Notes under the pieces: generated by a model
The model's input: only the letters and a program-made list of their open reading frames with translations
Told to the model about the DNA's origin: nothing
Database searches by the model: none
From: a virus
Strand: one strand, 5' to 3'
IMG/VR virus record: IMGVR_UViG_3300042906_000319
Coordinates: 1 to 29,205 of that record
DNA length: 29,205 nt
Program-made: the position numbers and the translations under genes
In this document: positions 6,787 to 28,512 of the stretch, one piece after another
Numbering within the stretch: position 1 is the stretch's first letter
Layout of the letters: the number at the start of each line of letters is the position of its first letter

Positions 6787-6788
6787 AA

Positions 6789-7994: not shown

Positions 7995-8012
7995 ATATTA
8001 ATCATACCTCCC

Positions 8013-8642: not shown

Positions 8643-8689
8643 GATAATCTCCTTTAATTATATCTTAATTCTATTTATACCGTGGAAAA

Positions 8690-8914
8690 TTATGAAAGAA
8701 CTGTTGCTAGTTCTTCTTCTGTTAATCCAAGTCTTTCTAGAATCGCTGCTTTTGCTACAGCCTTTTCTGCTGCTGCTTCTTCTCTTGCTTCTTGTTCTGC
8801 TTGCATTGCTGCACGATCAGCCAAGAACGCTTCAAGTTCAGCACCTTCTAACACTCTAACAACTGTTTCTCCAGTTGCTGCGTTAGTTTCAGATACTCTG
8901 ATTTCTTCTGACAT
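8690..8914 (-). CDS. Conserved small phage protein, helical
   Basis: 74 residues, ATG at 8914 after a perfect AAAGGAGG. It starts with a short beta part (IRVSETNAATGETVVRVLEG), continues as an Ala/Glu-rich helix (about residues 27-58, likely coiled coil) and ends with LERLGLTEEELATVLS, a short helical motif found at the C-terminus of many small phage proteins near tail genes. No specific function is known to me; in this setting it could be a fibre-assembly helper. It is one of the few genes of the region without Ser/Thr-rich beta composition. Confidence 0.7.
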   Translation of the reverse strand: MSEEIRVSETNAATGETVVRVLEGAELEAFLADRAAMQAEQEAREEAAAEKAVAKAAILERLGLTEEELATVLS

Positions 8915-8930
8915 AATTTACCTCCTTTTC

Positions 8931-11065: not shown

Positions 11066-11082
11066 GTTATATCACCTCTCTC

Positions 11083-11093
11083 ATTATAGCATT
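11083..11093 (-). promoter_or_regulatory. Extended -10 promoter candidate before the TTG-start fibre
   Basis: On the minus strand AATGCTATAAT, identical to the string at 3331-3341, lies 18 bases before the TTG start at 11065. TG-N-TATAAT is an extended -10 element; no -35 is evident. It may boost expression of this fibre inside the long operon. Confidence 0.4.
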
Positions 11094-11099
11094 ACGTAA

Positions 11100-11375
11100 T
11101 TAATTTACTTCTTCCCATAAACAAGTTTCTTCGTTTAAGTTCCATTCACCAATTTCTGGTTTTGGCGGTATAAAAGCATCTAACTCTTCATCATATTTAT
11201 ATCCAATACCAGCATAATTTTTTCTAATTCTATTATTATAAGAAGTTTGAATCCATACTCCACCTAAATTTAAATCATTTGCAAGATATTGTTGTCCTCT
11301 ATGTTCTTGAAAATCAGGAATAACTAATACTTGTAAAACAATATTATTATTATCTATTTGTGCAAAATGTGACAT
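11100..11375 (-). CDS. Conserved phage structural-region protein (FAQIDxNNxV / RKNYAGIGYxYD family)
   Basis: 91 residues, ATG at 11375. It shows the full pattern of a family widespread in marine phages, including cyanophages: MSHFAQIDNNNIVLQVLVI at the start, GGVWIQTSYNNRIRKNYAGIGYKYDEELDAFIPPKP in the middle and a W.L.EETC.W end. Its function is unknown; it is nearly always found beside tail-fibre genes. It starts directly behind the glycine-rich adhesin (TAA, one base, ATG), so the two may act together. Confidence 0.85.
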   Translation of the reverse strand: MSHFAQIDNNNIVLQVLVIPDFQEHRGQQYLANDLNLGGVWIQTSYNNRIRKNYAGIGYKYDEELDAFIPPKPEIGEWNLNEETCLWEEVN

Positions 11376-11376
11376 A

Positions 11377-12723: not shown

Positions 12724-13214
12724 TATGCATTACCTGCTTGTATACCGTAGAGATTAAAAGTTGTACCTGATAAAAAGGTTGTAGAATCAGCCTTAATGGT
12801 TATTGCAGAAACTGCTTCCATACTACGTCTAATTCCAGCCCTTAGTTGAACATAAGTACTGTTGTTTGCTCTGCTAATAACAGTTTTATTTGTTGTCGTG
12901 TTAGCGTAATTAAAAATTTGAACAATAACAGTTCCTTGCTCATCAGAACCAGAGGAAATACCACCTAAGCCAATTGAACTAACATTACTATCTCGGTTTG
13001 ATGTAACAGTTGAACCATTACCATACAAAGCAGTAACAGAATAATTATTAGTTGTATCAGAATTAAACTGAAGATTTGTATTTTCGTCTCCGTCAGTTCT
13101 GCCATTAAATATAACAATTAAATCAGTATATGTTTGTGGAATAGAACTAAAAGTAATAGAAGAAGCATTTACCCCTAGTATTGTTGATGCTATCGGTGTG
13201 TACGTTGCAGCCAT
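12723..13214 (-). CDS. One-domain fibre protein (IPQTYTDL family)
   Basis: 163 residues, ATG at 13214 after AAGGGA. It matches the first 160 residues of the glycine-rich adhesin and the next protein (13217-13804): TPIASTILGVNASSITFSSIPQTYTDLIVIFNGR, NLQFNSDTTNNYSVTALYGNGS, and a terminal TTFNLYGIQ strand. This looks like a free-standing copy of the adhesin's N-terminal domain, arisen by duplication. Probable structural/adhesion role. Confidence 0.75.
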   Translation of the reverse strand: MAATYTPIASTILGVNASSITFSSIPQTYTDLIVIFNGRTDGDENTNLQFNSDTTNNYSVTALYGNGSTVTSNRDSNVSSIGLGGISSGSDEQGTVIVQIFNYANTTTNKTVISRANNSTYVQLRAGIRRSMEAVSAITIKADSTTFLSGTTFNLYGIQAGNA

Positions 13215-13216
13215 TA

Positions 13217-13804
13217 TTATCCCTTAATTCCGTATAGAGCAAAAGAAGAATATTGTGCAAAATTATTTTGATTTGGCAATAAAATAATTGATGTTACAGA
13301 ACTTGTTGAACGCCAATGACCAGACCACAAACCAGTAATACCACTACCATTAGCATCCCAACCTGACAAAGTTGCTACAGTCTTAAATTTGTTAGTATTT
13401 GAATAATCTAAAATGTTTATAGCACAAGCCTCAAAAGAATTAGCAAGAGAAGTAGAAGCAATCACTGCACCAGTATAAATATAAGTAGAACTAGTTTCGT
13501 TACCTGATATACCAGAACTACCATTTCCTGTTAAATAATGACTAGCATAATTTGCTCCAGTATCACTATTAAATCTTAAAATAGTATTAACAGATGAAGC
13601 AGCAGTGGTTGAACGAGCAATACCTCTAATATGCAAATGGGTATAATCTTGTGGAATGTTAGAAAAAGTAATGCTAGAAGCAGCAACATTTAATGTAGTA
13701 GTAGCAATCTGAAAAAATCCATCGGTAGTAGCAGTTTGATCCCAAACTCTTCTACGCTTAACACCAGAAACCAATGATGATGTAGATAAACTAGTAATTG
13801 CCAT
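13217..13804 (-). CDS. One-domain fibre protein (IPQDYTHL family)
   Basis: 195 residues; ATG at 13804 overlaps the preceding stop. A 30-residue N-terminal extension (MAITSLSTSSLVSGVKRRRVWDQ) precedes the same domain: TLNVAASSITFSNIPQDYTHLHIRGIAR, LRFNSDTGANYASHYLTGNGS, ILLPNQNNFAQYSSFALYGIKG. The conserved features are RFNSD/QFNSD followed by NY and a final ALYGI/NLYGI strand. Paralog of the two neighbouring genes; receptor-binding or accessory fibre. Confidence 0.75.
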   Translation of the reverse strand: MAITSLSTSSLVSGVKRRRVWDQTATTDGFFQIATTTLNVAASSITFSNIPQDYTHLHIRGIARSTTAASSVNTILRFNSDTGANYASHYLTGNGSSGISGNETSSTYIYTGAVIASTSLANSFEACAINILDYSNTNKFKTVATLSGWDANGSGITGLWSGHWRSTSSVTSIILLPNQNNFAQYSSFALYGIKG

Positions 13805-14139
13805 TATGCAGTTATCTCCGATCCAAAAATGTTGAATGAAGTATCTGCAGTAGCGGCATAAACTGTTATAACATCAGATGCATCTAAGGTTGCACCTATG
13901 GTTATGGCAGTAGTATCATTTGCAGCCAATGCAACATCATATGCAATATAGTGCTTATTTGCTAATGTTTCAGCATTAGGTCTAATTGCAATACGATATG
14001 TAGTAGCGCTTGTAGATCTATTACAAACAGTAATAGTAGATACAATTGTTTGTACCCCTGCTCCAACGGTATAAATATCAGTATTGCTTGTTGCACTAGG
14101 TGCATTTTGTGCTAATACTTTATATGTTTTTGTAGCCAT
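13804..14139 (-). CDS. Small beta-rich phage structural protein
   Basis: 111 residues, ATG at 14139; its AGGAGG lies in the last codons of the preceding small gene. Paralog of 703-1020: YKVLAQNAPSAT..TDIYTVGAGVQTIVSTITVCNRSTSATTYRIAI, ...ATLDASDVITVYAA, ending FGSEITA. Single-domain beta protein of unknown precise function, typical for fibre gene clusters of aquatic phages. Confidence 0.75.
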   Translation of the reverse strand: MATKTYKVLAQNAPSATSNTDIYTVGAGVQTIVSTITVCNRSTSATTYRIAIRPNAETLANKHYIAYDVALAANDTTAITIGATLDASDVITVYAATADTSFNIFGSEITA

Positions 14140-14140
14140 T

Positions 14141-14281
14141 TTAACCTCCTAGTTGCATTAATATATCTGGATTATTATCAGCGTCAATAGTGTCTAATTC
14201 TGCTACCGTTGCTAATTCATCGAGGGTAGAAATAGTAACACTATCATTCAATAACTTACTTATATCTCTTGTTCTTGACAT
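14141..14281 (-). CDS. Free-standing RxRD tag protein, 46 residues
   Basis: ATG at 14281 with AAGGAG upstream (13-base spacing, like the fibre at 4705). The sequence begins MSRTRDISKLLNDSVTIS, the same tag that opens six fibres, followed by TLDELATVAELDTIDADNNPDILMQLGG and a stop. There is no fibre body: the protein ends where others begin their linker and adhesion domain. It is either a remnant of a fibre that lost its C-terminal part or a functional docking or plug peptide. Its intact frame, start signals and acidic helix-like tail argue against random decay. Confidence 0.65.
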   Translation of the reverse strand: MSRTRDISKLLNDSVTISTLDELATVAELDTIDADNNPDILMQLGG

Positions 14282-14309
14282 AGTTATATTATATCTCCTT
14301 TATACCCGA

Positions 14310-14990
14310 TCATTTATTGTATCCGTAAACTGAAATAGAACCAGTAATGTTTCCATTTTCACTAATTAAACTAAAGCCATCATATGAAGAAGAAACATCA
14401 TGTACTCCTCCACCAGCAAATCCTTGAACTACTGATGAATCAGTTATTGCTGAACCGTAGTGTCCCATTTTTGTTTTATTTGCAGTAAAGGGGTCAATAA
14501 GGTCTATAAAATAACCTTGGTATCCAGTTGCAGAGTTATCCATTTGACCTACTTTAAAACTTGAAACATTGTTTCCTTGTTGTGATACGTCAAATCCTGC
14601 ATGAGTTCTTGCCCAAAAAGCATAGTAATACGTAGTGCTTGCGTCAGTTGTACCTGAACGAAGTTTTAAAAAATGCCATCCATCATTAGCACTATTTGAT
14701 GTTATATCTACTAATATTCTATAATTATTATATGATGAATTAAATATAGTATTTAAAGATATTGAAGATGTAGATGTAAAACTAACAGTTCCATTTGTTC
14801 CTATTGATCCACTTCCGCCTGTAGCAGTTATTGAAGTTGGGGTTAGTAAAATCAATCCTGTAGCAGACTTAGTTTGATATACAGTTGAGGCACTAGCCTG
14901 TGTTAAATAATTAAATGCAGAAATTTCACTATCCGTAGCCAACGCGGTATTTGTAGAAAATACTTTTGATATATCTCTTGCTCTACCCAT
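14310..14990 (-). CDS. Tail-fibre protein with RxRD tag and SVYGYNK-type beta domain
   Basis: 226 residues, ATG at 14990. Tag MGRARDISKVFSTNTALATDSEI, YLTQASASTVYQTKSATG linker, then LILLTPTSITATGGSGSIG ... VSFTSTSSISLNTIFNSSYNNYRILVD ... YDGFSLISENGNITGSISVYGYNK. It is very close to 4744-5415 in tag and linker (both with LATD and STVYQTKA/S) but differs in the middle, as expected for receptor-facing loops. It lies two bases after the stop of the small partner gene copy 3. Confidence 0.78.
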   Translation of the reverse strand: MGRARDISKVFSTNTALATDSEISAFNYLTQASASTVYQTKSATGLILLTPTSITATGGSGSIGTNGTVSFTSTSSISLNTIFNSSYNNYRILVDITSNSANDGWHFLKLRSGTTDASTTYYYAFWARTHAGFDVSQQGNNVSSFKVGQMDNSATGYQGYFIDLIDPFTANKTKMGHYGSAITDSSVVQGFAGGGVHDVSSSYDGFSLISENGNITGSISVYGYNK

Positions 14991-14991
14991 A

Positions 14992-15156
14992 TTATTCTGC
15001 CACCCATTCTTCTGCTGTGTTGCCTTCAGAAACCCATTTTAAATATTCTTGATATTCATTAAGTGATTCATTTAAAGGAATCCATAATGTTTTATCAGAT
15101 TCTATTTTAATAATAAATGATTGATTAAGTTCATCACCTGTTTTTATTTTATACAT
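14992..15156 (-). CDS. Small partner protein of the GDMQ fibre, copy 3
   Basis: 54 residues (MYKIKTGDELNQ...), ATG at 15156 overlapping the fibre stop by one base (TAATG). The C-terminal half, WIPLNESLNEYQEYLKWVSEGN, aligns with copies 1 and 2. Being the third case of this gene directly behind a GDMQ-family fibre, it makes the pairing unlikely to be chance. The overlap implies coupled translation and similar amounts of both proteins. Confidence 0.7.
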   Translation of the reverse strand: MYKIKTGDELNQSFIIKIESDKTLWIPLNESLNEYQEYLKWVSEGNTAEEWVAE

Positions 15157-16238
15157 TATAACTCCGCACTAAAGGAAATAGTGGTTATGTCTCCACCCCA
15201 ACGATATATTGCACCGTGAGCCGTGGTAGCACTAGACATTCCTTGTAAATGAATTACTTGACCAGCAACACCTGCGTAGTTTGCAGATATACTTGTAGGT
15301 GTTCTTAATGCCACACCAGTTTGTTCTATCATATCCGTATATGTTGCAGATTTTACAGTCATAACTGCATCCGTTCTCATAGGAACTGGATTAGTAAAAC
15401 TAACTTTACATTGAGTTGTACTATAAAATGAACCTACTGCACCGTATGGGTAAAGATTTGTATAATATCTTTGACATTGTGCAAGTTCTTGTTGTGCAGG
15501 AAGAAACTCAAAGGGTGTAGCAGTATCACCAACCTCAAGTTGAACACCAGTAACCTGCCAGTAGTTATTAATTGCTGATGCAACGTTAACCTGACCAACG
15601 TGTGAATTAGCATCAGTATATGAACCCCAAGTACTTTGTAAAGTACCAGAAGTAAAATTACTTCCAAAACCAAGACCAAAAATTAAACCTAAAGAAGCAG
15701 CATTATCGTTATCAAATGCACCAGTGGTATCAGCGGGGAACGTAATAGTTTTCTTTTCCCAAGTTCCTGAAACACTAATAGTGTAAGAAGCAGAGTCACC
15801 TCTAGTGTTGTCGTAATCAACTAATCTAACAGTGTGAGTACCAGTAACATTTGATTTAACCCAAAAAGAAAGAGTTAACTGTTCTGCAGCAGCGGTCCCT
15901 TTTTTAATATGTTGAAGGTTTTGACCTTCTAAATAAGTATCTAATCTAACTTGATCACTTGCAGCAGGAGAAGCATCAGCAGTTGTGCAAAGAATTTTTA
16001 CTGATTTACGAAAACCTGAACCTGTTGGTGCATCGTTTTCTTGAGACATTGTCCAAGTTCCCATACTTCCTACAGTAAAGTTAAATCTATCTACTGTGTA
16101 ATAGTTACTTGTAGTAATAGATGCTGTGGATGTACCACGTTGGGCAATCTGCATATCACCATTAATAATTAAGTTCTTAAAATTATCAGAAGGACCTTGA
16201 GAACTTCTAGTAGTTAAAATATTACTTAATTTTGCCAT
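15156..16238 (-). CDS. Tail fibre/adhesin of the GDMQ family, copy 3
   Basis: 360 residues if started at MAKLSNILTT (16238), which has GGAGG 8 bases upstream and overlaps the preceding stop by one base; an ATG 15 bases upstream is less likely. It lacks the RxRD tag and long linker, going almost directly into FKNLIINGDMQIAQRGTS. The central domain follows copies 1 and 2 (WTMSQENDAPTGSGF, EQLTLSFWVKSNVTGTH, WEKKTITFPADTTGAFD, NYWQVTGVQLEVG, FEFLPAQQELAQCQRYY). The C-terminal ~105 residues are unique and end TTISFSAEL. Putative receptor-binding protein; partner gene directly downstream. Confidence 0.8.
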   Translation of the reverse strand: MAKLSNILTTRSSQGPSDNFKNLIINGDMQIAQRGTSTASITTSNYYTVDRFNFTVGSMGTWTMSQENDAPTGSGFRKSVKILCTTADASPAASDQVRLDTYLEGQNLQHIKKGTAAAEQLTLSFWVKSNVTGTHTVRLVDYDNTRGDSASYTISVSGTWEKKTITFPADTTGAFDNDNAASLGLIFGLGFGSNFTSGTLQSTWGSYTDANSHVGQVNVASAINNYWQVTGVQLEVGDTATPFEFLPAQQELAQCQRYYTNLYPYGAVGSFYSTTQCKVSFTNPVPMRTDAVMTVKSATYTDMIEQTGVALRTPTSISANYAGVAGQVIHLQGMSSATTAHGAIYRWGGDITTISFSAEL

Positions 16239-19120
16239 TATATAGTCCTCCATCCATAAGTAGTATTAGTATATATAAATTCTACACTACCATTGTTTAC
16301 ATCTATAGTGAAATTTTCTTCTACCCCGTCAATTTTTTCACTATTTCTACCAACAGTAATATTATTAATATTAGCATTATTAGATAAGTCGGAAATAAGC
16401 ACTTTATGACCCAATATAGGAGTAGCAGGTAGTGTTATAGTATGTGCACTAGCCGAGGTATTTACAAAAATAACATCATTAATACTTGCAGTATAAGGAC
16501 CATTAACTATATAAGTATTTCTTTTTATTTCATATCTAGCATCTGCTTGAGTTTGAGTATATAGATTTCCTACGTTTAATATTTCATGAGATTTAATTTC
16601 TACTATATCCCCCGAAGATACCGCTTCAACTAGAAGTACGGTGCTGCCACTTGTTGCAGTATAGTCAGTGGTTCTTGTTAATAAAATACCGTTTACAAAT
16701 ATTTCTTCATTACCAACTGTATAAGATAGGGTAAGAGAACTGTCGTCTAAGCCAGAAATTGTTGTAGCACTTGCACCCATTGTTTTTGTCCAGCGGGTAT
16801 AGTTAGAAACCTTTTGATCTATTTCTGCTTTAGTATATGCATCTGCAAAATTAAATGATTGTACTGCTATAACTTCTACTACGTCATTATTAACTACCGC
16901 TTCATTTAGAACTATAGTACTGCCACTTGTGGCGGTATAGTTAGAAATATCTTGTAAAATACCATTAATAAATACTTGTTCTAATCCTGGAGTATAATTT
17001 AAACTAAATAAATCATCATCTGTACCCGAAATTAATGTTGCACTTCCACTATAAGTCTTAGACCATCTTGTAAAACTTCCACCATCGGTGCTTCCAGAGC
17101 CTTCAGGGGCTGTTTCTACCCAGAAAGTGCCGTCATACACATAAAATGACCCATCAGTATTATCAAACCAGGCATCACCCTCTACGGCCCCTACAGGAGC
17201 ACTTGCTGAAACAATAATGCTTGCTCCACCACTACTAGCAGATCCACCACCACCTGCAGAGCCAACTAATATAACTTGATTATTAGCATCATCATATGTT
17301 GCTGTTATATTTGTATGATTTGAGTGAATAAATAAACTTGATGATTGATCTTGAATATATTCTATACCGTCTGCATTTTTTGCAACATAGTTTGCTGAAG
17401 CATTTGCTTGAGTTAAATAAGTTGCTGATGCTGATGAAGCATCTAGTTTTGCTGCTAAAGAATTTGTTACTGTAGTTGCAAAACTTGAGTCATCATTTAA
17501 TGCTGCTGCTAGTTCATTGAGGGTATCTAGTGCACCAGGTGCACCGTCTAACACCGCTGTTACTGCTGCGGCAGAAGCACTGTTAATGATTGATTGTTGA
17601 CTTGATAATGGTATAAAAGTTACACTTGCTGCATTAATTGCTCTTTCGTGAGTAAAGTATAAATTACCAGGATCAACAAGATTGATTGTTCCTTGCATTG
17701 ATGAATGAAATTGACAAGCGTAATATAAAGTATTCGGAGCATTTAATGGGATTGTCCAAGTTATTGTTCCGTTATCTGTACCAAGATTTGTTGTTCCAGT
17801 TGAATAAATATTCCCAGAACTATATCCTCCAGATGCTGACTGAATCCAAAATGGATGTCCACTTGCATTTATAACAAATGTATAAGTATTTCCCTTTACT
17901 AAATTAAATGTTGGATTGTTTACGGCAGCAACAACGTATGCACCAGTTCCACTATTTGTTACGGTAAATGTTTCATTTCCAGCAACAGTAGGTTCTGGAA
18001 TATCGTTAGTAGTTAAAGCGTTTATTTCAGAATTTGTATAAGCGCTTGCGCTTGCATATGCTGTGGCAGATGCGCTATTGATTATTCCTTGTTGGCTTGA
18101 CTGTAATATGTAAGTTGCTGATCCTGCGTTAACTGCTCTTTCATTTGTGAAGTATAGGTTTGTGTTTTCTGCAATGTCTGCTGTTGTTAGTGCATCTGCG
18201 TATACTACTGCGGCTGCTGAGGCTGTTACGATTGCTGAAGCAAGTTCTGCGTCTGTTGCAAAGTTTGGTGACGCTGAAGCATAGTCTGCTTGAGTTAAGT
18301 ATGTTGCTGAGGCGGTATTTGAAGTAATAAATGTAGATAGAATATCTGGATTATCTCCTAATGCTGCTGCTAATTCGTTAAGGGTATCTAGTGCACCTGG
18401 TGCACCGTCTAGTACTGCAGTTACTGCGGCTGCAGAAGCAGTATTAATAATTGACTGTTGGCTTGTTTGAAGAATGTATGTAGCACTTGCTGCATCAATT
18501 GCTCTTTGGTTTGTAAAGTATTTATTAGTTCCTTCTTCAATGTCTGTAGTTGTTAAAGCATTTATTTGAGACAAAGTGTTAGCACTTGCTGAAGCATAAG
18601 CCGCAGCCGATGCGGAGTTTGAGTATGAGTTTGCTTGAGAAAGTGCATAAGCAGATGCAGACGAAGTGGCTCCCGCTGTTGCATCTAAGGCTCTTTGGTT
18701 TGTAAAATAAAGCCTACTTCCTTCTTCTATGTCAGAAGTAGTTAAAGCATTAATTTGAGCATTTGTATATGCTGAGGCTGATGCGTAGGCCGTTGCTGAA
18801 GCAGAATTTATGGTAGTAGCAATATTGCTAAAGAATGATGGATCATCACCAATTGCTGCTGCTAGTTCGTTTAGTGTGTCAAGGAGTGCAGGTGCTGAAT
18901 CAATCAGGTCACCAATTTCAGAATTTATGTAGGCTATAATTGAGGCTGAAGCAGCATATACGTCTGCAAAATAATCTAGTTCGGTCCAATTAGAAGAACC
19001 ATCACCAATTTTTATTTTATTAGTGTCAGTTTCTACTCCAACTTCGCCAGATGCTAAGATTGGATTGGAACTAGTCCAAGAAGAAGCGATACCTCTTCTT
19101 AACTGAATTCTTGTTGCCAC
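16238..19120 (-). CDS. Long tail fibre with Mtd-type N-terminus, cupredoxin-like insertion and TRW-repeats
   Basis: 960 residues, GTG start at 19120. Residues 1-50 (IQLRRGIASSWTSSNPILASGEVGVETD, KIGDGSSNW) match the N-terminal domain of the major tropism determinant and many other fibres. Then come three LDTLNELAAA(I/L) units and four ALTT.DI.E...YFT..RA units in an Ala/Ser-rich, probably coiled or beta-helical shaft. Residues about 395-485 are a cupredoxin-like domain with His422, Cys469, His472 and Met475 (C-x2-H-x2-M), the complete ligand set of a type-1 copper site. Two TRW-repeats (TRWSKTYSGSAT, TRWTKTMGASAT) and a C-terminal VNTSASAHTITLP domain ending GWRTI follow. GGGGGTATAATCTCT precedes the start, so the site could serve as ribosome binding site or -10 box. 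Confidence 0.85.
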   Translation of the reverse strand: MATRIQLRRGIASSWTSSNPILASGEVGVETDTNKIKIGDGSSNWTELDYFADVYAASASIIAYINSEIGDLIDSAPALLDTLNELAAAIGDDPSFFSNIATTINSASATAYASASAYTNAQINALTTSDIEEGSRLYFTNQRALDATAGATSSASAYALSQANSYSNSASAAAYASASANTLSQINALTTTDIEEGTNKYFTNQRAIDAASATYILQTSQQSIINTASAAAVTAVLDGAPGALDTLNELAAALGDNPDILSTFITSNTASATYLTQADYASASPNFATDAELASAIVTASAAAVVYADALTTADIAENTNLYFTNERAVNAGSATYILQSSQQGIINSASATAYASASAYTNSEINALTTNDIPEPTVAGNETFTVTNSGTGAYVVAAVNNPTFNLVKGNTYTFVINASGHPFWIQSASGGYSSGNIYSTGTTNLGTDNGTITWTIPLNAPNTLYYACQFHSSMQGTINLVDPGNLYFTHERAINAASVTFIPLSSQQSIINSASAAAVTAVLDGAPGALDTLNELAAALNDDSSFATTVTNSLAAKLDASSASATYLTQANASANYVAKNADGIEYIQDQSSSLFIHSNHTNITATYDDANNQVILVGSAGGGGSASSGGASIIVSASAPVGAVEGDAWFDNTDGSFYVYDGTFWVETAPEGSGSTDGGSFTRWSKTYSGSATLISGTDDDLFSLNYTPGLEQVFINGILQDISNYTATSGSTIVLNEAVVNNDVVEVIAVQSFNFADAYTKAEIDQKVSNYTRWTKTMGASATTISGLDDSSLTLSYTVGNEEIFVNGILLTRTTDYTATSGSTVLLVEAVSSGDIVEIKSHEILNVGNLYTQTQADARYEIKRNTYIVNGPYTASINDVIFVNTSASAHTITLPATPILGHKVLISDLSNNANINNITVGRNSEKIDGVEENFTIDVNNGSVEFIYTNTTYGWRTI

Positions 19121-23366: not shown

Positions 23367-23486
23367 TTAGTACCCTGCCTTATCCATAGCACAATCGTAG
23401 CATAGTGCAGGTGCAGAATACCATTTAGCCAATATATCAAATTGTATTTGGCATTTGTAACATGTAGCCTCTACTAGGTTACTCAT
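23367..23486 (-). CDS. Mini zinc-ribbon protein (LCYDCAMDK)
   Basis: 39 residues, MSNLVEATCYKCQIQFDILAKWYSAPALCYDCAMDKAGY, ATG at 23486 overlapping the previous stop (ATGA). Cys9-x2-Cys12 and Cys29-x2-Cys32. The C-terminal LCYDCAMDK is identical to that of the 36-residue protein at 25002-25112 in the opposite operon, so the two are paralogs. Probably binds zinc; target unknown. Confidence 0.65.
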   Translation of the reverse strand: MSNLVEATCYKCQIQFDILAKWYSAPALCYDCAMDKAGY

Positions 23487-23629: not shown

Positions 23630-23791
23630 TTATTTAACCTCAATTTCTTGAACTTGATATTCATCTGCGTAATCTTCTTTACCAGAATCTTTTAGCATTT
23701 CAATTAGATACATTTCTGCATCTTGTTTATTTATAAAGAAATTATCAAAATCAAATCCTTCATAATCTCTTACTATTCCGTATATCTTCAT
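23630..23791 (-). CDS. Small acidic protein, first gene of the leftward operon
   Basis: 53 residues, MKIYGIVRDYEGFDFDNFFINKQDAEMYLIEMLKDSG ... YQVQEIEVK, ATG at 23791 after AAAGG. Strand-helix-strand layout (a DAEMYLIEML helix between KIYGIV and YQVQEIEV) is common in small phage regulators or inhibitors. Function not recognised. The shared promoter/operator motif lies about 33 bases upstream (23824-23841). Confidence 0.65.
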   Translation of the reverse strand: MKIYGIVRDYEGFDFDNFFINKQDAEMYLIEMLKDSGKEDYADEYQVQEIEVK

Positions 23792-23823
23792 TTTATTGCC
23801 TTTCGTTTGTATAACTTAAACCT

Positions 23824-23841
23824 ATCATATACCCCCGACAT
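23824..23841 (-). promoter_or_regulatory. Shared early promoter/operator motif, site 2
   Basis: Minus-strand (A)TGTCG-N6-TATGATAGG, with TAAGTT 17 bases after the first box as possible -10. It precedes the operon starting at 23791. Confidence 0.55.
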
Positions 23842-23924
23842 ATTTGCTAGGTGGGGGAGGTGTCTCTAGGTTATTTGCTAGGCTCATACCCTTTCGGGTC
23901 TTATTTGCTAGGCTCACTAGAGAC
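23841..23924. repeat. Three TATTTGCTAGG repeats inside a long inverted structure
   Basis: TATTTGCTAGG occurs at 23841-23851, 23872-23882 and 23902-23912, spaced 31 and 30 bp. GTCTCTAG (23862-23869) pairs with CTAGAGAC (23917-23924), enclosing two of the copies and an inner ACCC-tttc-GGGT hairpin. CCCCC/GGGGG near 23832-23856 could form a further stem. It lies between the stop at 23930 and the promoter of the next operon, so it may act as terminator, as a protein-binding site array, or both. Confidence 0.65.
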
Positions 23925-23929
23925 TTTTG

Positions 23930-24037
23930 CTATTTAGAGTCGCCTCTAAACCATTTGTCGAACTTATCGTAATCGACCTCAACGCCTGCAGGTAAATCCT
24001 GTTCGTAAGCCTCTAGGGCCTCAACGTATCCTCTCAT
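23930..24037 (-). CDS. Small acidic protein, unknown function
   Basis: 35 residues, MRGYVEALEAYEQDLPAGVEVDYDKFDKWFRGDSK, ATG at 24037 with a perfect AAAGGAGG, so translation should be strong despite the small size. Helical, no Cys. Preceded by the shared promoter motif (24070-24087). Not recognised. Confidence 0.65.
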   Translation of the reverse strand: MRGYVEALEAYEQDLPAGVEVDYDKFDKWFRGDSK

Positions 24038-24069
24038 TTGGATACCTCCTTTCTATATATCTTCAATCT

Positions 24070-24087
24070 ATAATAGGGGTCTGACAA
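24070..24087 (-). promoter_or_regulatory. Shared early promoter/operator motif, site 3
   Basis: Minus-strand TTGTCA-GACCCC-TATTATAG; CTAT-T-ATAG is a perfect palindrome. GAAGAT lies 17 bp after TTGTCA as candidate -10. It drives the gene at 24037. Confidence 0.6.
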
Positions 24088-24100
24088 TTTTGACCTATTT

Positions 24101-24206
24101 AGATGAACGGAAGATGAACAGAAGATGAACAAATTTAGGGTTATCAACAAGCAACACGCCGTATATGTTAATAAAGTTATCCACATTGTTAGTAACCTGT
24201 GGATAA
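24101..24206. other. Candidate replication origin: iterons and DnaA boxes
   Basis: Three direct AGATGAAC repeats at an 11-bp period (24101, 24112, 24123) are followed by TTATCAACA (24141-24149, one mismatch to a DnaA box), and by two perfect DnaA boxes facing each other: TTATCCACA (24177-24185) and TGTGGATAA (24198-24206). One-turn-spaced iterons next to DnaA boxes are a classical theta-origin layout. The block lies in a gene-free gap between leftward mini-genes. Phage initiator and helicase genes are not in this window. Confidence 0.6.
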
Positions 24207-24271
24207 CGCGGGCGCCCCGATCGGGCGTGTCGCACCTTTAAGTTAAGATGCGACTATCCCAGATGCAGGTT
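24207..24271. repeat. GGCGCCCC intergenic element, copy A
   Basis: GGGCGCCCCGATCGGGCG, then GTCGCA-(14 nt)-TGCGAC, then TCCCAGATGCAGGTT. The 60 nt from GCGCCCC to CAGGTT are identical to copy B; the left arm of the outer hairpin is missing here. It abuts the DnaA boxes. Confidence 0.8.
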
Positions 24272-24278
24272 GCAGCGA

Positions 24279-24341
24279 TTAGTTATAATCTCGAGCACAT
24301 GAACGACACATATAGCCACTATCGCAAGAGCAGTTATTCAT
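24279..24341 (-). CDS. Twenty-residue Cys-rich micro-protein
   Basis: MNNCSCDSGYMCRSCARDYN, ATG at 24341 with AAAGGA seven bases upstream and a shared promoter motif (24370-24387) before it. Cys-x-Cys and Cys-x2-Cys could chelate one zinc ion. It is isolated between two copies of the GC-rich repeat. Very short, but start signals and composition match the other mini zinc-ribbons. Confidence 0.45.
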   Translation of the reverse strand: MNNCSCDSGYMCRSCARDYN

Positions 24342-24369
24342 TTTATATCCTTTCATTTAATTAAAGACT

Positions 24370-24387
24370 ATCATGAGCCTATGACAA
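24370..24387 (-). promoter_or_regulatory. Shared early promoter/operator motif, site 7
   Basis: Minus-strand TTGTCA-TAGGCT-CATGATAG, with TTAATT 17 bp after TTGTCA. It precedes the micro-protein gene at 24341. Confidence 0.5.
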
Positions 24388-24394
24388 AAGCAAG

Positions 24395-24466
24395 ACGACA
24401 CGCGGGGCGCCCCGATCGGGCGTGTCGCACCTTTAAGTTAAGATGCGACTATCCCAGATGCAGGTT
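24395..24466. repeat. GGCGCCCC intergenic element, copy B
   Basis: CGACACGC and GCGTGTCG pair around GGGGCGCCCCGATCG. GTCGCA/TGCGAC further on is a competing stem sharing bases with the right arm. On the minus strand the first stem is followed by TCTTGCTTTT, so it could terminate transcription of 24467-24658. Confidence 0.85.
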
Positions 24467-24658
24467 TTACAACCTCACAAACGTAGGCCAAGTAATTCCA
24501 CATGCCTCTTGAAATTTAGCGTCATTGAATCTTTCATTTTCTGCTAAAAATAAATCTCCAAATTCTAAAACTATTTCTTCAAAAGTAGTTTGAGGAATTT
24601 CATCTCTAAATTCTTTTAGTAAAGAAGCAACCTTTTCAAAGTGTTGTCTAGTCATCAT
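24467..24658 (-). CDS. Conserved small phage protein (MTRxHFExVA type)
   Basis: 63 residues, ATG at 24658 (a second ATG follows directly), AAAGGA eight bases upstream. MTRQHFEKVASLLKEF ... FGDLFLAENERFNDAKFQEACG follows a family of short phage and plasmid proteins that begin MTR.HFE.IA and end F....FN...F..ACG. Function unknown; all-helical. It is a one-gene unit between a shared promoter motif (24694-24711) and repeat copy B. Confidence 0.75.
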   Translation of the reverse strand: MMTRQHFEKVASLLKEFRDEIPQTTFEEIVLEFGDLFLAENERFNDAKFQEACGITWPTFVRL

Positions 24659-24693
24659 TTTTTATTTCCTTTGTTTGTAGTTAGTTTTACCTT

Positions 24694-24711
24694 ATCATGT
24701 ACCCCCGACAA
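24694..24711 (-). promoter_or_regulatory. Shared early promoter/operator motif, site 1
   Basis: Minus-strand TTGTCG-GGGGTA-CATGATAAGG upstream of the gene at 24658; the candidate -10 at 17 bp (AAAACT) is poor. Confidence 0.5.
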
Positions 24712-24719
24712 AAACAAAC

Positions 24720-24790
24720 CGACACGCGGGGCGCCCCGATCGGGCGTGTCGCACCTTTAAGTTAAGACACACCTAACCCCAATGCAGGTT
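24720..24790. repeat. GGCGCCCC intergenic element, copy C
   Basis: Shares 48 nt with copy B through GTTAAGA, then diverges and rejoins at ATGCAGGTTTT. The outer hairpin CGACACGC/GCGTGTCG is intact and followed on the minus strand by GTTTGTTTTT; the second stem is lost. It lies between divergent units and just ahead of the rightward promoter. Confidence 0.85.
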
Positions 24791-24819
24791 TTGTCAGCCC
24801 CCTATGTTAGTATTTTAAT
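24791..24819 (+). promoter_or_regulatory. Shared early promoter/operator motif, site 4
   Basis: TTGTCA (24791-24796), 17-bp spacer with CTATGTTAG, TTTAAT (24814-24819). It drives the eleven-gene operon starting at 24844. Confidence 0.65.
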
Positions 24820-24843
24820 ACGATAAAAGATAAGGATATAAAA

Positions 24844-25002
24844 ATGGATAAAGAAACAATGCTAGATTTAATTCATAGCGAATTAAGTGCACAATATAAC
24901 GATAATACCCTTGCAGACTACGCTCTGCTTGGAACACTAAAGTCATTAGTAACTCATGACGCTTTAATTGGATACATAAATAGAAATGGTTGGAATAAAT
25001 AA
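24844..25002 (+). CDS. Small protein, first gene of the rightward operon
   Basis: 52 residues, MDKETMLDLIHSELSAQYNDNTLADYALLGTLKSLVTHDALIGYINRNGWNK, ATG at 24844 with AAGGA eight bases upstream. Mostly helical, acidic N-terminus. Its TAA shares a base with the next ATG. Not recognised; conserved start signals and coupling make it a confident gene. Confidence 0.7.
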   Translation: MDKETMLDLIHSELSAQYNDNTLADYALLGTLKSLVTHDALIGYINRNGWNK

Positions 25003-25112
25003 TGAGTCTAGTATGTTGGAGATGTGAAACAGATATTCCTATGAATACCCCTGTTCACGATAATAAATATGCCCTTTGCTATGATTGTGCCATGGATAAG
25101 GTTATGGCATGA
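25002..25112 (+). CDS. Mini zinc-ribbon protein (LCYDCAMDK)
   Basis: 36 residues, MSLVCWRCETDIPMNTPVHDNKYALCYDCAMDKVMA. Cys5-x2-Cys8 and Cys26-x2-Cys29. LCYDCAMDK is identical to the end of the protein at 23367-23486 on the other strand. Start overlaps the preceding stop (TAATG) and its own stop overlaps the next ATG (ATGA). Confidence 0.7.
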   Translation: MSLVCWRCETDIPMNTPVHDNKYALCYDCAMDKVMA

Positions 25113-25237
25113 AAGGTATCAAGTGTTTATTCTGTGATGAATACCAAGTTGTTACATCATCAGAAAAAGATTGGTTTCTTTGTCTGCCATGTGGGCTAGA
25201 CTTTGAGTTAATAGTAAAGGAGAAAATAAATGGCTAA
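25109..25237 (+). CDS. Mini zinc-ribbon protein
   Basis: 42 residues, MKGIKCLFCDEYQVVTSSEKDWFLCLPCGLDFELIVKEKING; Cys6-x2-Cys9 and Cys25-x2-Cys28 around a 15-residue turn. The end of the gene carries AAGGAG for the next one, whose ATG overlaps it. Confidence 0.7.
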   Translation: MKGIKCLFCDEYQVVTSSEKDWFLCLPCGLDFELIVKEKING

Positions 25238-25379
25238 TTGGGCTAAATGCGAAATATGCAATAACGATAAAAAATTCTTTCAAGTAGTGTGTGAGGTGTG
25301 TTGGTCAAGAAGAAATCACCCTGCCTACTATGATAAGATAAGCGAAATAGAAAATAGAAAGGACTATCAAAGTGTCTAA
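25230..25379 (+). CDS. Mini zinc-ribbon protein with helical tail
   Basis: 49 residues, MANWAKCEICNNDKKFFQVVCEVCWSRRN ... DYQSV. Cys7-x2-Cys10 and Cys21-x2-Cys24 form the knuckle; a basic SRRNH patch and a charged helix (YDKISEIENRKDY) follow. ATG at 25230 with AAAGGAG eight bases upstream. Overlaps both neighbours. Confidence 0.7.
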   Translation: MANWAKCEICNNDKKFFQVVCEVCWSRRNHPAYYDKISEIENRKDYQSV

Positions 25380-25617
25380 TTCAACTCAACTATGGTGGGC
25401 TGGAACAATAACACAATTTGGCGACATGCAAAAATTCTATGATGTCAATTTGTGGACAATGGAAAGCAAAGACGGAAAGTATGCTAGTGTAATCCTTGAC
25501 GGCGAAATGATAAAAAGTTGGCGTTGTGATGGTGCATGGGATTTGGCTAGAAAACTAGCAGAGTCTCACTTACTTAAAAGAGAACAACTAGAGCAAGAGG
25601 GCTGGGTGACAGCATAA
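25372..25617 (+). CDS. Small conserved-looking phage protein, unknown function
   Basis: 81 residues with a GTG start at 25372 (AAAGGA nine bases upstream, inside the previous gene). LWWAGTITQFGDMQKFYDVNLWTMESKDGKYASVILDGEMIKSW reads as an all-beta domain, followed by a helix WDLARKLAESHLLKREQLEQEGW. No metal motif. It interrupts the run of zinc-ribbons and is the second largest protein of this operon. Confidence 0.75.
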   Translation: MSNSTQLWWAGTITQFGDMQKFYDVNLWTMESKDGKYASVILDGEMIKSWRCDGAWDLARKLAESHLLKREQLEQEGWVTA

Positions 25618-25706
25618 TGTTACTATGGACAGATTGGCTAGCAATCGCTATACTCGTAAGTGTTTCAATGTTCTTATTTGGATTTATTTATGGAGGTAGA
25701 AAATAA
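25617..25706 (+). CDS. Tiny single-helix membrane protein
   Basis: 29 residues, MLLWTDWLAIAILVSVSMFLFGFIYGGRK: one membrane helix with a basic end. TAATG overlaps on both sides. GGAGG near its end serves the next gene. Unknown function. Confidence 0.55.
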   Translation: MLLWTDWLAIAILVSVSMFLFGFIYGGRK

Positions 25707-25804
25707 TGAAAGCAACATGTGGAGAGTGTAATAAGTCATTTGATTTATTATTTGAAGAAGATGCGTCAGAATTATTAGACGGACACGATTGCATGGCATA
25801 CTAA
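25706..25804 (+). CDS. Mini zinc-finger-like protein
   Basis: 32 residues, MKATCGECNKSFDLLFEEDASELLDGHDCMAY, preceded by GGAGGTAGAAAATA. Cys5-x2-Cys8 with His27 and Cys29 as possible further ligands; acidic middle. Overlaps neighbours by TAATG. Confidence 0.65.
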   Translation: MKATCGECNKSFDLLFEEDASELLDGHDCMAY

Positions 25805-25911
25805 TGACTATTTGCATAAATTGTCTTAGTGAGATAAACTATGAAGAAGATGGTGGACACATATATCCAGACGGATGTGTAGTGTGTGCTGATTGCGAGG
25901 GAGCAAACTAA
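25804..25911 (+). CDS. Mini zinc-ribbon protein, five Cys
   Basis: 35 residues, MTICINCLSEINYEEDGGHIYPDGCVVCADCEGAN: Cys4-x2-Cys7 and Cys25-x2-Cys28-x2-Cys31. Start and stop overlap neighbours. GAGGGAG near the end serves the next gene. Confidence 0.65.
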   Translation: MTICINCLSEINYEEDGGHIYPDGCVVCADCEGAN

Positions 25912-26099
25912 TGCAAGCACAATGGATAGATTTACTTAAAACAATTCAAGGCAAACTAAAAACATCTGGATACCAATTGCAAGAAGTTGCAACTTATTCA
26001 GAAACTAACTATAATGAAGAAATAATGAGATTGTCAGAGCATTGTGACAAAATGGTTAGAAACATAGACCTACTACTATCGGGAGAAAAAAGTGCCTAA
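25911..26099 (+). CDS. Small helical protein, unknown function
   Basis: 62 residues from MQAQWIDLLKTIQGKLKTSG (25911), where TAATG overlaps the previous stop and GAGG lies about ten bases upstream; a TTG-like start 18 bases earlier is less plausible. The remainder, VATYSETNYNEEIMRLSEHCDKMVRNIDLLL, is amphipathic helix, probably coiled coil. Overlaps the next gene by eight bases. Confidence 0.65.
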   Translation: MQAQWIDLLKTIQGKLKTSGYQLQEVATYSETNYNEEIMRLSEHCDKMVRNIDLLLSGEKSA

Positions 26100-26361
26100 A
26101 GAAAAGCCAATTCACAAAATGGTTGAAGAAGTATTTGATAAAGATGTAACTCAAGATTTAATAGATGAGTTAGCAGAAGAAAAAACTTTCATAGTTAATA
26201 CAATGAAAAAATTTGTAGAGACAGATGAAATATGGGAACAACTATTAGATAACAAGGAAGCCAGAAAAGCATTTCTAAATAACCTACAAATGTTATTTCT
26301 AAATGATATAGAGAATAGCACTTTAATTGAATTAGCAACTACTAAATGGGGGAACGACTAA
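26092..26361 (+). CDS. Small acidic helical protein, unknown function
   Basis: 89 residues with GTG start at 26092 after GGGAG. MPKEKPIHKMVEEVFDKDVTQDLIDELAEEKTFIVNTMKKFVETDEIWEQLL and the rest are helical and strongly acidic. It overlaps the preceding stop and its own stop overlaps the next ATG. Acidic helical early proteins are often inhibitors or DNA mimics, but nothing specific supports that here. Confidence 0.7.
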   Translation: MPKEKPIHKMVEEVFDKDVTQDLIDELAEEKTFIVNTMKKFVETDEIWEQLLDNKEARKAFLNNLQMLFLNDIENSTLIELATTKWGND

Positions 26362-26435
26362 TGGAAATGTTTATTATTGGATTTATATTCCTGGGTGTAG
26401 TATGGTATTTAATTTATAAAGAGAAACTTTTGTAA
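26361..26435 (+). CDS. Tiny single-helix membrane protein, last gene of the operon
   Basis: 24 residues, MEMFIIGFIFLGVVWYLIYKEKLL: one membrane helix and basic end, comparable with the 29-residue protein at 25617. TAATG overlap. Followed by repeat copy D and a terminator. Confidence 0.5.
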   Translation: MEMFIIGFIFLGVVWYLIYKEKLL

Positions 26436-26450
26436 TTACCCCGAAATTTG

Positions 26451-26510
26451 GGGGCGCCCCGCGGATCGTAGCGGACCTATTAAGTTTAAGAAAAAGATTT
26501 CCCAGTCTAG
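26451..26510. repeat. GGCGCCCC intergenic element, copy D (diverged)
   Basis: GGGGCGCCCC, a CCGC/GCGG inverted repeat, GACCTATTAAGTTTAAGA and TCCCAGTCTAGG follow in the same order as in copies A-C and F, with changed stem sequence but conserved blocks. Confidence 0.65.
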
Positions 26511-26538
26511 GAAAAATGAATTAAACCTAAACTGGGAA
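26499..26538. terminator. Bidirectional terminator between convergent units
   Basis: TTCCCAGTCTAGG pairs with CCTAAACTGGGAA (13 bp, one C-A mismatch). Plus strand continues GTTTTATTT, minus strand ATCTTTTTCTT. It serves the operon ending at 26435 and the leftward gene ending at 26546. Confidence 0.8.
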
Positions 26539-26545
26539 GTTTTAT

Positions 26546-26722
26546 TTAGATTGCTACTTGAACAATCTTATATTCAGGCTTGACTGTTGTCCAGCGTTCT
26601 TTGCCTTTGACATCAAGACGAACTCTCACCGAGCCAGATGAGTTTTGCACAATTTCTTGCACAACGCCTTTAACCCCACTATTTTTTGTAGTGAGTTCTT
26701 GACCTAATTGGATTAGTGTCAT
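26546..26722 (-). CDS. Small basic SH3/KOW-like protein, unknown function
   Basis: 58 residues from MTLIQLGQELTTKNSGVKGVVQEIVQ (26722), with AAAGGAAG seven bases upstream; the longer open frame would run through the promoter. The sequence alternates strands: GVKGVVQEIVQ, GSVRVRLDVKGKERWTTVKPEYKIVQV. A short five-strand barrel with Gly turn and Lys/Arg-rich face resembles KOW or SH3-like nucleic-acid-binding domains; this is by pattern only. Single-gene unit with its own promoter (26756-26784). Confidence 0.65.
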   Translation of the reverse strand: MTLIQLGQELTTKNSGVKGVVQEIVQNSSGSVRVRLDVKGKERWTTVKPEYKIVQVAI

Positions 26723-26755
26723 TTTGCTTCCTTTCGTTGTTGTTGATACCAATTT

Positions 26756-26784
26756 ATCATACACGACTGACAAGTGCAAGTCAA
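26756..26784 (-). promoter_or_regulatory. Shared early promoter/operator motif, site 6, with a full promoter
   Basis: Minus-strand TTGACT (26784-26779), 17-bp spacer, TATGAT (26761-26756). Within the spacer TTGTCA-GTCGTG precedes TATGATAA, so the shared motif and a normal promoter coincide. Confidence 0.65.
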
Positions 26785-26790
26785 TAGGCA

Positions 26791-26846
26791 TGTGACCTTG
26801 GTCACACCTGGGGCGCCCCCTGTCCGATCTGTCCCTTTTAAGATCG
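26791..26846. repeat. GTGACC palindrome and GGCGCCCC element, copy E
   Basis: TGTGACC-tt-GGTCACA (26791-26806) is a perfect inverted repeat between the divergent promoters of 26722 and 26882, well placed for an operator. GGGGCGCCCC (26811-26820) and CCCTTTTAAGATC follow, a diverged repeat copy. Confidence 0.6.
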
Positions 26847-26875
26847 TTGACTTTGTCAGCCCGATATGATAGGTT
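26847..26875 (+). promoter_or_regulatory. Promoter for a leaderless gene, with shared motif site 5
   Basis: TTGACT (26847-26852), 17-bp spacer, TAGGTT (26870-26875), six bases, ATG at 26882: the same geometry as at 21565-21600. The spacer contains TTGTCA-GCCCGA-TATGATAGG. Confidence 0.65.
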
Positions 26876-26881
26876 TAAGAT

Positions 26882-27037
26882 ATGAGTAACACATACAAGG
26901 ATAGAAAAGTAGCCCATGTGCAAGGACTAAGGCGTTCGGGTGCTAGTGGCATACATAAAAATAAAGTTAAAGATAGACAGAAACGACTATCTAATGCTAA
27001 GATATGGAAAGACTACTTAAAGGATGAAAATGAATAA
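26882..27037 (+). CDS. Small basic protein, probably leaderless
   Basis: 51 residues, MSNTYKDRKVAHVQGLRRSGASGIHKNKVKDRQKRLSNAKIWKDYLKDENE. About one third is Lys/Arg in the first 40 residues, suggesting nucleic-acid binding. There is no ribosome binding site; the promoter predicts transcription starting at or next to the ATG. Overlaps the GP88-like gene by eight bases. Not recognised. Confidence 0.6.
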   Translation: MSNTYKDRKVAHVQGLRRSGASGIHKNKVKDRQKRLSNAKIWKDYLKDENE

Positions 27038-27752
27038 GTTAAAACGCTCACACGATAGAAAAGTTACTAACCTAGTTAATAATGCTGGTAATGGTAGTTT
27101 AATTCAAAATACATTTGGTCTACCTGCTGGAAAAAATTATTCATGCCCTAGTGCTACATCCATATGTGAGAAAGTATGTTATGCAGGAAAACTAGAAAAA
27201 TTATACAAGGCAGTCAAGGCTAATCTATTGCATAATTGGGAATTACTAAAAGACGCTGACAGAATAACTATGTTCGATTTATTGTCCGACATGGTAGCAG
27301 ATTTCAAAAAAGATTGTGTTAAGCGTAATGCTGAAATGTTATTTCGTATTCACTGGGATGGCGATTTCTTTAATGATGACTACACACACGCATGGCGTTC
27401 AGTTATTGAGGAACAACCTGACATAAAATTTTGGGTATATACAAGAGTAAAGTCTGCTGCTTTAATTCTTAAAGACTTACCTAATCTAAGTTTATATTAT
27501 TCTACTGATAGTGAAAATGTTGATAATGCTAAAGTGCTATCTGTTGAGCATGGAATAAAATTAGCATATCTTGCAGATACATTCGCTATGGGTAAAGAAC
27601 AATTACTATCCCTAGTTAATGCCAAGGGTATTCCATGTCCTGAGAATAATAAGAAAATTCCTCTTATTGACAAAGGTGGCTCTGCATGTGTAAAATGTAG
27701 TCAATGCGTAGTGGGTCGCAACAATATCCTATTCTCTGCTACTAAAAAATAA
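27030..27752 (+). CDS. GP88-like cysteine-rich protein of unknown function
   Basis: 240 residues from the ATG at 27030 (AAAGGA five bases upstream); an ATG six bases earlier is possible. FGLPAGKNYSCPSATSICEKVCYAG gives Cys39, Cys46 and Cys50, followed by LLHNWELL, MLFRIHWDGDFFNDDYTHAW and IKFWVYTRVK; these blocks in this order characterise the actinophage 'gene product 88' family. The C-terminus adds Cys203 and Cys220-x2-Cys223-x2-Cys226. Such sets suggest bound iron-sulfur or zinc. The family's reaction is unknown; the Cys spacing is not the CX3CX2C of radical SAM enzymes. It follows the small basic gene in one operon. Confidence 0.8.
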   Translation: MNKLKRSHDRKVTNLVNNAGNGSLIQNTFGLPAGKNYSCPSATSICEKVCYAGKLEKLYKAVKANLLHNWELLKDADRITMFDLLSDMVADFKKDCVKRNAEMLFRIHWDGDFFNDDYTHAWRSVIEEQPDIKFWVYTRVKSAALILKDLPNLSLYYSTDSENVDNAKVLSVEHGIKLAYLADTFAMGKEQLLSLVNAKGIPCPENNKKIPLIDKGGSACVKCSQCVVGRNNILFSATKK

Positions 27753-27916: not shown

Positions 27917-27939
27917 TTTCCTACCCCGTTTCCTGGATC

Positions 27940-27990
27940 GGCGGGCGCCCCGTGTGACGAACATCACACCTATTAAGGTTAAGAGGGGTC
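27940..27990. repeat. GGCGCCCC intergenic element, copy F
   Basis: GGGCGCCCC, GTGTGA-(6 nt)-TCACAC inverted repeat (27952-27969), CACCTATTAAGGTTAAGA, then TCCCAGACTTATG inside the following promoter spacer. Same block order as copies A-D. Confidence 0.7.
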
Positions 27991-28053: not shown

Positions 28054-28512
28054 ATGGCAGGAAAAGCGATAAATGTTAAGGTAGCCAGAACTAAGGTTAT
28101 CAAAGCATTAGAAGTAAAAGTAGAAGAAATGAAAAACCAACAAATGAACTATGAGTTGCTATTAAGTAAGCATGAAACAGACTACGCTGAGTGGAAAAAC
28201 AAAGTAGCCAAAATTGCTTATGCTCATCTTGACTCAGTAAAAGATAAACAAAAAACTATATCTATTAGAAATGCTTGGCACAATGACGACAATATCAGAG
28301 TTGATGTTGAAGTAGAAGTTCCAAGAGATAAGATGCCAGTAGAACCAGAAGCACCTAAGCCACCCTTTCAATCACAAGGATATGGTCGCAACTATATTGG
28401 TGGCTTTGAGGACAGACTTGCAGAAATACAAAATGCAATTCGTGTTCTTAGCATGTCAGATGAGGAAGTAGTCTCAACCTCAACTTACCAATCTGTAAGT
28501 AGATACTTATAG
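28054..28512 (+). CDS. Phage protein of unknown function, coiled coil
   Basis: 152 residues, ATG at 28054 with AAAGGA seven bases upstream. Residues about 12-50 (KVIKALEVKVEEMKNQQMNYELLLSKHETDYAEWKNKVAKIA) form a long charged helix. Then a beta part (TISIRNAWHNDDNIRVDVEVEVP), a Pro-rich linker (PVEPEAPKPPF) and a terminal helix FEDRLAEIQNAIRVLSMSDEEVV. I do not recognise a family with a known role. Single-gene unit behind promoter 27991-28019. Confidence 0.75.
   Translation: MAGKAINVKVARTKVIKALEVKVEEMKNQQMNYELLLSKHETDYAEWKNKVAKIAYAHLDSVKDKQKTISIRNAWHNDDNIRVDVEVEVPRDKMPVEPEAPKPPFQSQGYGRNYIGGFEDRLAEIQNAIRVLSMSDEEVVSTSTYQSVSRYL

Follow-up and report, generated by a model that had tools for sequence, protein, structure and literature searches.

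Box promoters with a fixed spacing to the -10 element in the putative early region of a family of uncultivated phages

A short TTGTC-type motif recurs seven times between 23.8 and 26.9 kb of the IMG/VR virus record IMGVR_UViG_3300042906_000319, a single contig of 29,205 bases that was analysed over its whole length (the window), and each copy lies on the same strand as the small gene after it. The locus raises the question whether these sites form one promoter class and what protein reads them. A preliminary description of the sequence had proposed a promoter family shared by phage early genes, defined by the pattern TTGTC[AG]-N6-[TC]AT[GT][AT]TA and controlled either by a phage repressor or activator at a near-palindromic spacer site or by a non-standard sigma factor. 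The shared promoter class was supported by the present analysis. The evidence is best fitted by a class outside ordinary -35/-10 recognition that depends on a phage activator or another specificity factor.

A search with GP88, which is encoded at 27024-27752 of the window, yielded 80 related loci; IMG/VR records may be fragments. Redundancy in the promoter sets was reduced by sequence distance, the remaining members still being related. A set of 224 non-redundant promoters was used for the register and for open reading frame (ORF) starts, a set of 307 from branch A of the family, which includes the window, was used for CRP-type sites, and a set of 56 represented branch B.

Anatomy and distribution of the promoter unit

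Six exact matches to the noted pattern were located in the window, at 24069, 24369, 24693 and 26755 on the minus strand and at 24791 and 26853 on the plus strand; the seventh site (23823, minus strand) carries one mismatch (ATGTCG). This recurrence is beyond chance (mean 0.067 and maximum 2 matches in 300 dinucleotide shuffles), and the spacing is identical, with 6 matches at a spacing of 6 against 1 across 25 other spacings combined. The positions reported earlier were right to within 1 base, but the ranges 24791-24819, 26756-26784 and 26853-26881 blend in an alternative -35/-10 reading with a 17-bp spacer.

Comparison of the relatives gave a different unit, namely W-TGTC[A/G]-G, exactly 10 bp and TANNNT, with a -10 that is often extended (TGn) and an A at +1. 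The consensus W TGTC R G W S S is usually followed by TG n TA n n n T, and the +1 A is placed seven bases past the -10. In the 80 related loci, TATAAT-like -10 sequences follow TTGTC[AG] at a spacing unlike that noted before. Among 423 non-redundant [AT]TGTC[AG]G boxes, TANNNT stood at offset 17 in 223, at offset 16 in 2 and at offset 18 in 8. When a single base of the box was changed, most variants gave no spacing peak. All seven window sites conform to the register WTGTCRG-N10-TANNNT.

At 210 of the 224 sites, the predicted +1 is no more than 150 nt from an ORF start. Start codons lie mostly 18-40 nt from this position, behind a ribosome-binding site, with a peak of 14 promoters in which ATG falls exactly on +1 (26882 in the window); leaderless genes are common in actinobacteria. 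Because the promoters of the 224 set, the start-codon peak at +1 and the phase of the CRP-type sites described below agree, the offset-17 register was fixed, the predicted +1 being the A that follows TANNNT at a distance of seven bases.

The box unit was present in 80 of 80 related loci and in 44 of 44 larger records searched, i.e. in every relative examined; occurrence in relatives had been named beforehand as a test of the promoter family. The extended form WTGTCRGN7TGNTANNNT was likewise found in all 44 larger records, with few matches among backward controls and 3 overall with a spacer of N8. TTGTCAGTGGN4TGNTATAAT was obtained from at least 120 viral contigs, against 1 with a gap one base shorter, and AATGTCAGTGGTN6TATAAT from at least 120 stretches, against 3 with a gap one base longer. 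The 29-kb window fragment carries 7 box promoters, and relatives have between 7 and 25 in each genome, where they are restricted to a single compact region of presumed early genes. With a weight matrix, the 116.5-kb record G030 gave 15 strong sites, all at 68.9-80.9 kb and mostly before a small gene, and one weak site outside that early region; Markov sequences yielded one to two matches. A scan of 257 Gb of bacterial and archaeal genomes with TTGTCAGTGGN4TGNTATAAT (18 specified bases) gave 7 scattered matches in unrelated phyla, about the chance expectation and none of them actinobacterial. The motif thus occurs at chance level in bacterial genomes and was not encountered there as a class of host promoters.

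Nearly all box-bearing contigs have genes in common with one large phage family, in which genomes measure about 100-116 kb and genes are common across the full records fetched. Identity to Stanwilliamsviridae phages of Streptomyces is 47% for the portal protein and 55% for the DnaE-type polymerase; GP88 shares about 55% identity with its homologues in mycobacteriophages. By these similarities the box phages are placed as distant relatives of the Streptomyces Stanwilliamsviridae. As all three proteins resemble those of actinobacteriophages, the hosts are probably freshwater actinobacteria. The Streptomyces relative LukeCage has a corresponding small-gene set with a DUF932 gene, in which many genes have their own promoter. 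Because this counterpart is situated in the terminal repeats, the box region was called early, and the genes behind box promoters are presumed early genes.

In three records (G018, G030 and G038; loci L215-L220 and L234-L245), genes outside the early region often have canonical TTGACA-N17/18-TATAAT promoters, several with ATG at the predicted +1 (leaderless). These promoters are a second class in box phages.

The -35 element and CRP-type sites

Branch B comprises seven records (loci L276, L277, L280, L289, L292, L302 and L304) with up to 25 box promoters each. The consensus of its 56 non-redundant promoters is AATGTCAGTGGT-N6-TATAAT, and 85% of them have A at +1. A -35 (TTGACA, 5/6 or better, 17-bp spacer) was detected in 1 and TGn in 11 of the 56, and CRP palindromes are nearly lacking. 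Since these promoters have little beyond the box and the -10, the usual function of the -35 must be supplied by the box, which most likely replaces it in branch B. Among branch A promoters, a -35 at 17-18 bp is present in about one third and TGn in over half, and replacement of the -35 by the phage box is seen in part. Among the window sites, box promoter 6 is overlapped by a canonical TTGACT-N17-TATGAT reading, and box promoter 7 has a TTGACT -35 immediately upstream with a 17-bp spacer.

In record G038, the sixth position of the box is G (TGTCGG) in 14 of 18 boxes, compared with about 6% elsewhere. This concerted shift suggests a co-evolving trans factor that reads the box. TGTCGG stands in place of TGTCAG at most promoters at once both in this record (L240-L245) and in its near relative G029.

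The palindrome TGTGA-N6-TCACA, with up to 1 mismatch, was found upstream in 155 of the 307 branch A promoters; the corresponding counts were 1 or 2 with permuted palindromes and 22 in windows drawn at random from these loci. Its centre lies at -100 to -48 in 136 of the 307, and the centres cluster near -54, -64, -74 and -84 from the predicted +1. A Rayleigh scan (n = 144) put the period at 10.3 bp (R = 0.74); its p value is only indicative because the promoters are related. In eight records, 31 of 43 perfect palindromes lie in the stretch between 45 and 105 bp upstream of box promoters, which makes up about 1% of the sequence. The perfect palindrome TGTGACCTTGGTCACA of the window is situated between the divergent box promoters 6 and 7; relative to their two +1 positions its centre falls at -54.5 and -83.5, which are both preferred positions in the relatives.

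A CRP-type helix-turn-helix protein was detected in 0 of 20 phage records, all 14 control genomes being positive; therefore, the palindromes are probably bound by a CRP/GlxR-type protein of the host. In Corynebacterium, GlxR acts as a global regulator (PMC3917453). Like class I CRP promoters (E. coli CRP and actinobacterial GlxR/Crp), many box promoters of branch A have TGTGA-N6-TCACA upstream of the core promoter and on one helical face relative to +1. Unlike them, they are phage-borne, stand before much of an early-gene set and are paired with a phage-specific box. Classical class I centres are at -61.5, -71.5 and -82.5, and the centres determined here from the predicted +1 do not coincide with these positions.

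Reading of the box and rival explanations

With moderate confidence, the box sites are regarded as early promoters at which a phage-encoded factor reads the box in place of a -35 and to which branch A adds host CRP. The asymmetric phage box (W-TGTCRG-WSS, about -29 to -20) would be held at a fixed 10-bp gap, counted from WTGTCRG, from a host-type -10 that is most likely still read by the RNA polymerase of the host, equipped with its main sigma factor. A DNA-binding factor, probably encoded by the phage and docked at a fixed site of the polymerase, would read the box and work in a manner similar to MotA at the middle promoters of T4. A host CRP-family regulator bound about 54, 64, 74 or 84 bp upstream on one helix face would give a class I boost to many promoters of branch A.

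At T4 middle promoters, the MotA box is centred at -30, lies 12 +/- 1 bp from the -10 and replaces the -35, with TGn in about half of the cases (PMC2988021). The box promoters share with them the host -10, the phage box for the -35, the asymmetry of the box, the presence of TGn in about half of all cases and the large number of promoters per temporal class. They differ in the box itself (TGTCRG versus TGCTTtA of the MotA box wwwTGCTTtA), in the gap, which is fixed at 10 bp when counted from WTGTCRG, and at 6 bp when counted from the 12-bp box of branch B, versus 12 +/- 1 bp, and in the box centre, which is near -25 rather than -30, so that a -35 can coexist. The MotA/AsiA profiles PF09158 and PF09010 matched 0 of 17 records, neither search including a positive control. 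Judged by this comparison, the box promoters would resemble T4 middle promoters most in their working, but differ from them in sequence and distance and are not members of that class. Tentatively, the reader may be a new transcription-specificity factor, unlike known sigma factors or MotA, that shifts upstream recognition by an actinobacterial polymerase to a -25 box rigidly spaced from the -10, one branch tying its early genes to host cAMP-CRP. Early phage expression would then be gated by the carbon or energy state of the host.

Several points weigh against the assignment to a phage-encoded activator. A protein reading the box was not found among the candidates examined, i.e. sigma factors, WhiB and two modelled proteins. 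A phage sigma factor (TIGR02937) was over the cut-off in 0 of 14 records with positive control genomes, although a highly diverged sigma factor would escape this search; the sigma factor was rejected as reader, and its earlier proposal as a non-standard sigma factor is unsupported. WhiB was over the cut-off in 19 of 20 branch A records and is universal in fuller box phages. It was rejected as a specific reader, since it is also encoded by the box-less Streptomyces relatives LukeCage and BillNye. The 63-aa, 58-aa and 152-aa early proteins of the window belong to families that are shared by branches A and B and were not detected in the Streptomyces relatives. The 63-aa protein was present in 9 of 9 genomes compared. 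The 58-aa protein was modelled as a small beta barrel (predicted local distance difference test score, pLDDT, 77) and is a weak candidate for a transcription accessory factor; the 152-aa protein was modelled as a long helix (pLDDT 81). Neither of the two models gave a DNA-binding fold or a significant match in the PDB, and the connection of the three proteins with the box is only a lead. Furthermore, the transcription starts used here are predicted positions, the identity of the host is deduced from protein similarity, and those branch A promoters that have a -35 or TGn could use the box as a repressor site.

It is improbable that the box is a phage repressor operator in the promoter spacer, used for late early-gene shut-off or superinfection immunity as in cluster A mycobacteriophages. 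The asymmetric box overlaps the core promoter, many branch A promoters with a -35 and TGn could fire without it, and monomeric phage repressors acting on asymmetric sites are known (PMC9283540). However, an operator needs no gap fixed to one bp, and branch B promoters retain the box though the -35 is absent and TGn is seldom found; a mere operator is therefore insufficient, and the repressor-only model was rejected. Boxes away from a -10 occurred at background level, so that there are no stoperator-like sites outside promoters. The cluster A operator/stoperator consensus is GGTGGMTGTCAAG, which like the box is a short, asymmetric, TGTCA-containing site with many copies per genome; unlike the box, it is another 13-mer and is not locked to a -10, and it was found 0 times in nine genomes. 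A symmetric repressor or activator site, as proposed before, is unsupported because the conserved box is asymmetric. Still less can be said for the version in which TATGAT, 6 bp past TTGTCA, is the -10 and the near-palindrome CTATGATAG is the operator, a reading which we consider extremely improbable. TATGAT is present in the sub-clade of the window, and TTGACT-N17-TATGAT can be drawn at 26756-26784, but across the relatives TANNNT was found in the register of this version (offset 12) in 64 cases versus 223 at offset 17, and start codons peak at the +1 predicted from the latter. Only the final TA of [TC]AT[GT][AT]TA starts the true -10. No exact copy of CTATGATAG occurs in the window, and copies with one mismatch number 15 versus 9.9 +/- 3.1 expected by chance; the palindrome is incidental, neither a conserved element nor placed between -35 and -10.

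Reading of the box by a host protein, or by host polymerase and sigma factor as an unusual spacer element exploited by phages, is unlikely. It would agree with the location of the class in apparent immediate-early genes, which are normally served by unmodified host polymerase, and the Streptomyces-phage relatives have ordinary TTGCNN-N17-TAGACT promoters for the corresponding region. A host factor would also fit the one clear exception among box-bearing contigs, a 7.6-kb contig of a different phage (L126, 46% GC) with three perfect box promoters at 5650-6300 before small genes, on account of which the class may cross phage families. One protein of this contig is 60% identical to that of Actinomycetia phage DSL-LC01, in which no box was found. 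Against reading by the host stand the chance-level matches in the bacterial genomes and the virtual restriction of box-bearing contigs to one phage family.

The box phages resemble LukeCage and BillNye of the Stanwilliamsviridae in having related genomes with WhiB elsewhere in the genome, and have the small-gene region with DUF932 in common with LukeCage. The early promoters of LukeCage, by inspection, are of the TTGCNN-N17-TAGACT type, unlike those of the box phages, and neither the TGTCRG box nor a perfect CRP palindrome occurred in the first 20 kb of LukeCage or BillNye. The exchange of a -35 for a phage box is best known from T4; an actinobacteriophage example that is built differently would add a route to polymerase retargeting. 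The CRP phasing suggests that the phage reads the host cAMP state directly at its early genes. The motif may further be used as a ready marker by which early genes, and with them probable anti-host genes, can be recognised in many contigs of uncultivated phages. Published reports of the motif or of CRP-phased phage early promoters were not found in the literature searched, subscription papers being outside its scope.

Features of the window

The coordinates of the box promoters, of the two conserved proteins and of the perfect CRP-type palindromes are compiled in the following table.

Table 1. Box promoters and associated features of the window (positions of the 29,205-base stretch)
Feature	Position	Strand	Sequence	Predicted +1	Gene or remark
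Box promoter 1	23819..23841	-	ATGTCGG-N10-TAGGTT	23812	53-aa ORF 23630-23791
Box promoter 2	24065..24087	-	TTGTCAG-N10-TAGATT	24058	ATG 24037, 35-aa ORF
Box promoter 3 (weakest)	24365..24387	-	TTGTCAT-N10-TAGTCT	24358	ATG 24341, 20-aa Cys-rich ORF 24279-24341
Box promoter 4	24689..24711	-	TTGTCGG-N10-TAAGGT	24682	63-aa ORF 24467-24658
Box promoter 5	24791..24813	+	TTGTCAG-N10-TAGTAT	24820	52-aa ORF 24844-25002
Box promoter 6	26751..26773	-	TTGTCAG-N10-TAAATT	26744	conserved 58-aa protein 26546-26722
Box promoter 7	26853..26875	+	TTGTCAG-N10-TAGGTT	26882	+1 = A of ATG, 51-aa ORF 26882-27037 (leaderless)
58-aa small beta-barrel (SH3/Tudor-like) protein, predicted	26546..26722	-			in all box phages compared, not found in Streptomyces phages
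152-aa largely helical protein, predicted	28054..28512	+			conserved in box phages
Perfect CRP-type palindrome	26791..26806	.	TGTGACCTTGGTCACA		between divergent promoters 6 and 7
Perfect CRP-type palindrome	27953..27968	.	TGTGACGAACATCACA		about -65.5 from box-less TTGCCC-N17-TATGTT promoter of 28054-28512

A repeated GC-rich intergenic element, GGGGCGCCCCGATCGGGCGTGTCGCACCTTTAAGTTAAGA, adjoins promoters at 24203-24263, 24395-24468, 24719-24792, 26445-26491, 26804-26845 and 27936-27984 and includes the inverted arms CGACACGC and GCGTGTCG. Upstream of 82 of the 307 promoters in the relatives lies GACACGC or GCGTGTC, with a preference for centres near -50 or -42. At 24177-24206 the window has TTATCCACA and TGTGGATAA, two sequences in inverted orientation that resemble DnaA boxes; TTATCCACA was found upstream of 42 of the 307 box promoters in the relatives, at variable position.

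A 32-nt inverted repeat (23378-23409 and 25070-25101, 88% complementary) lies in two small Cys-rich frames on opposite strands, which look like divergent paralogues. About three copies of a module lie in the structural region (3373-16253), each with a 52-54-aa ORF, a protein of tail-fibre type (PHROG 4492) and an ORF of 200-226 aa.

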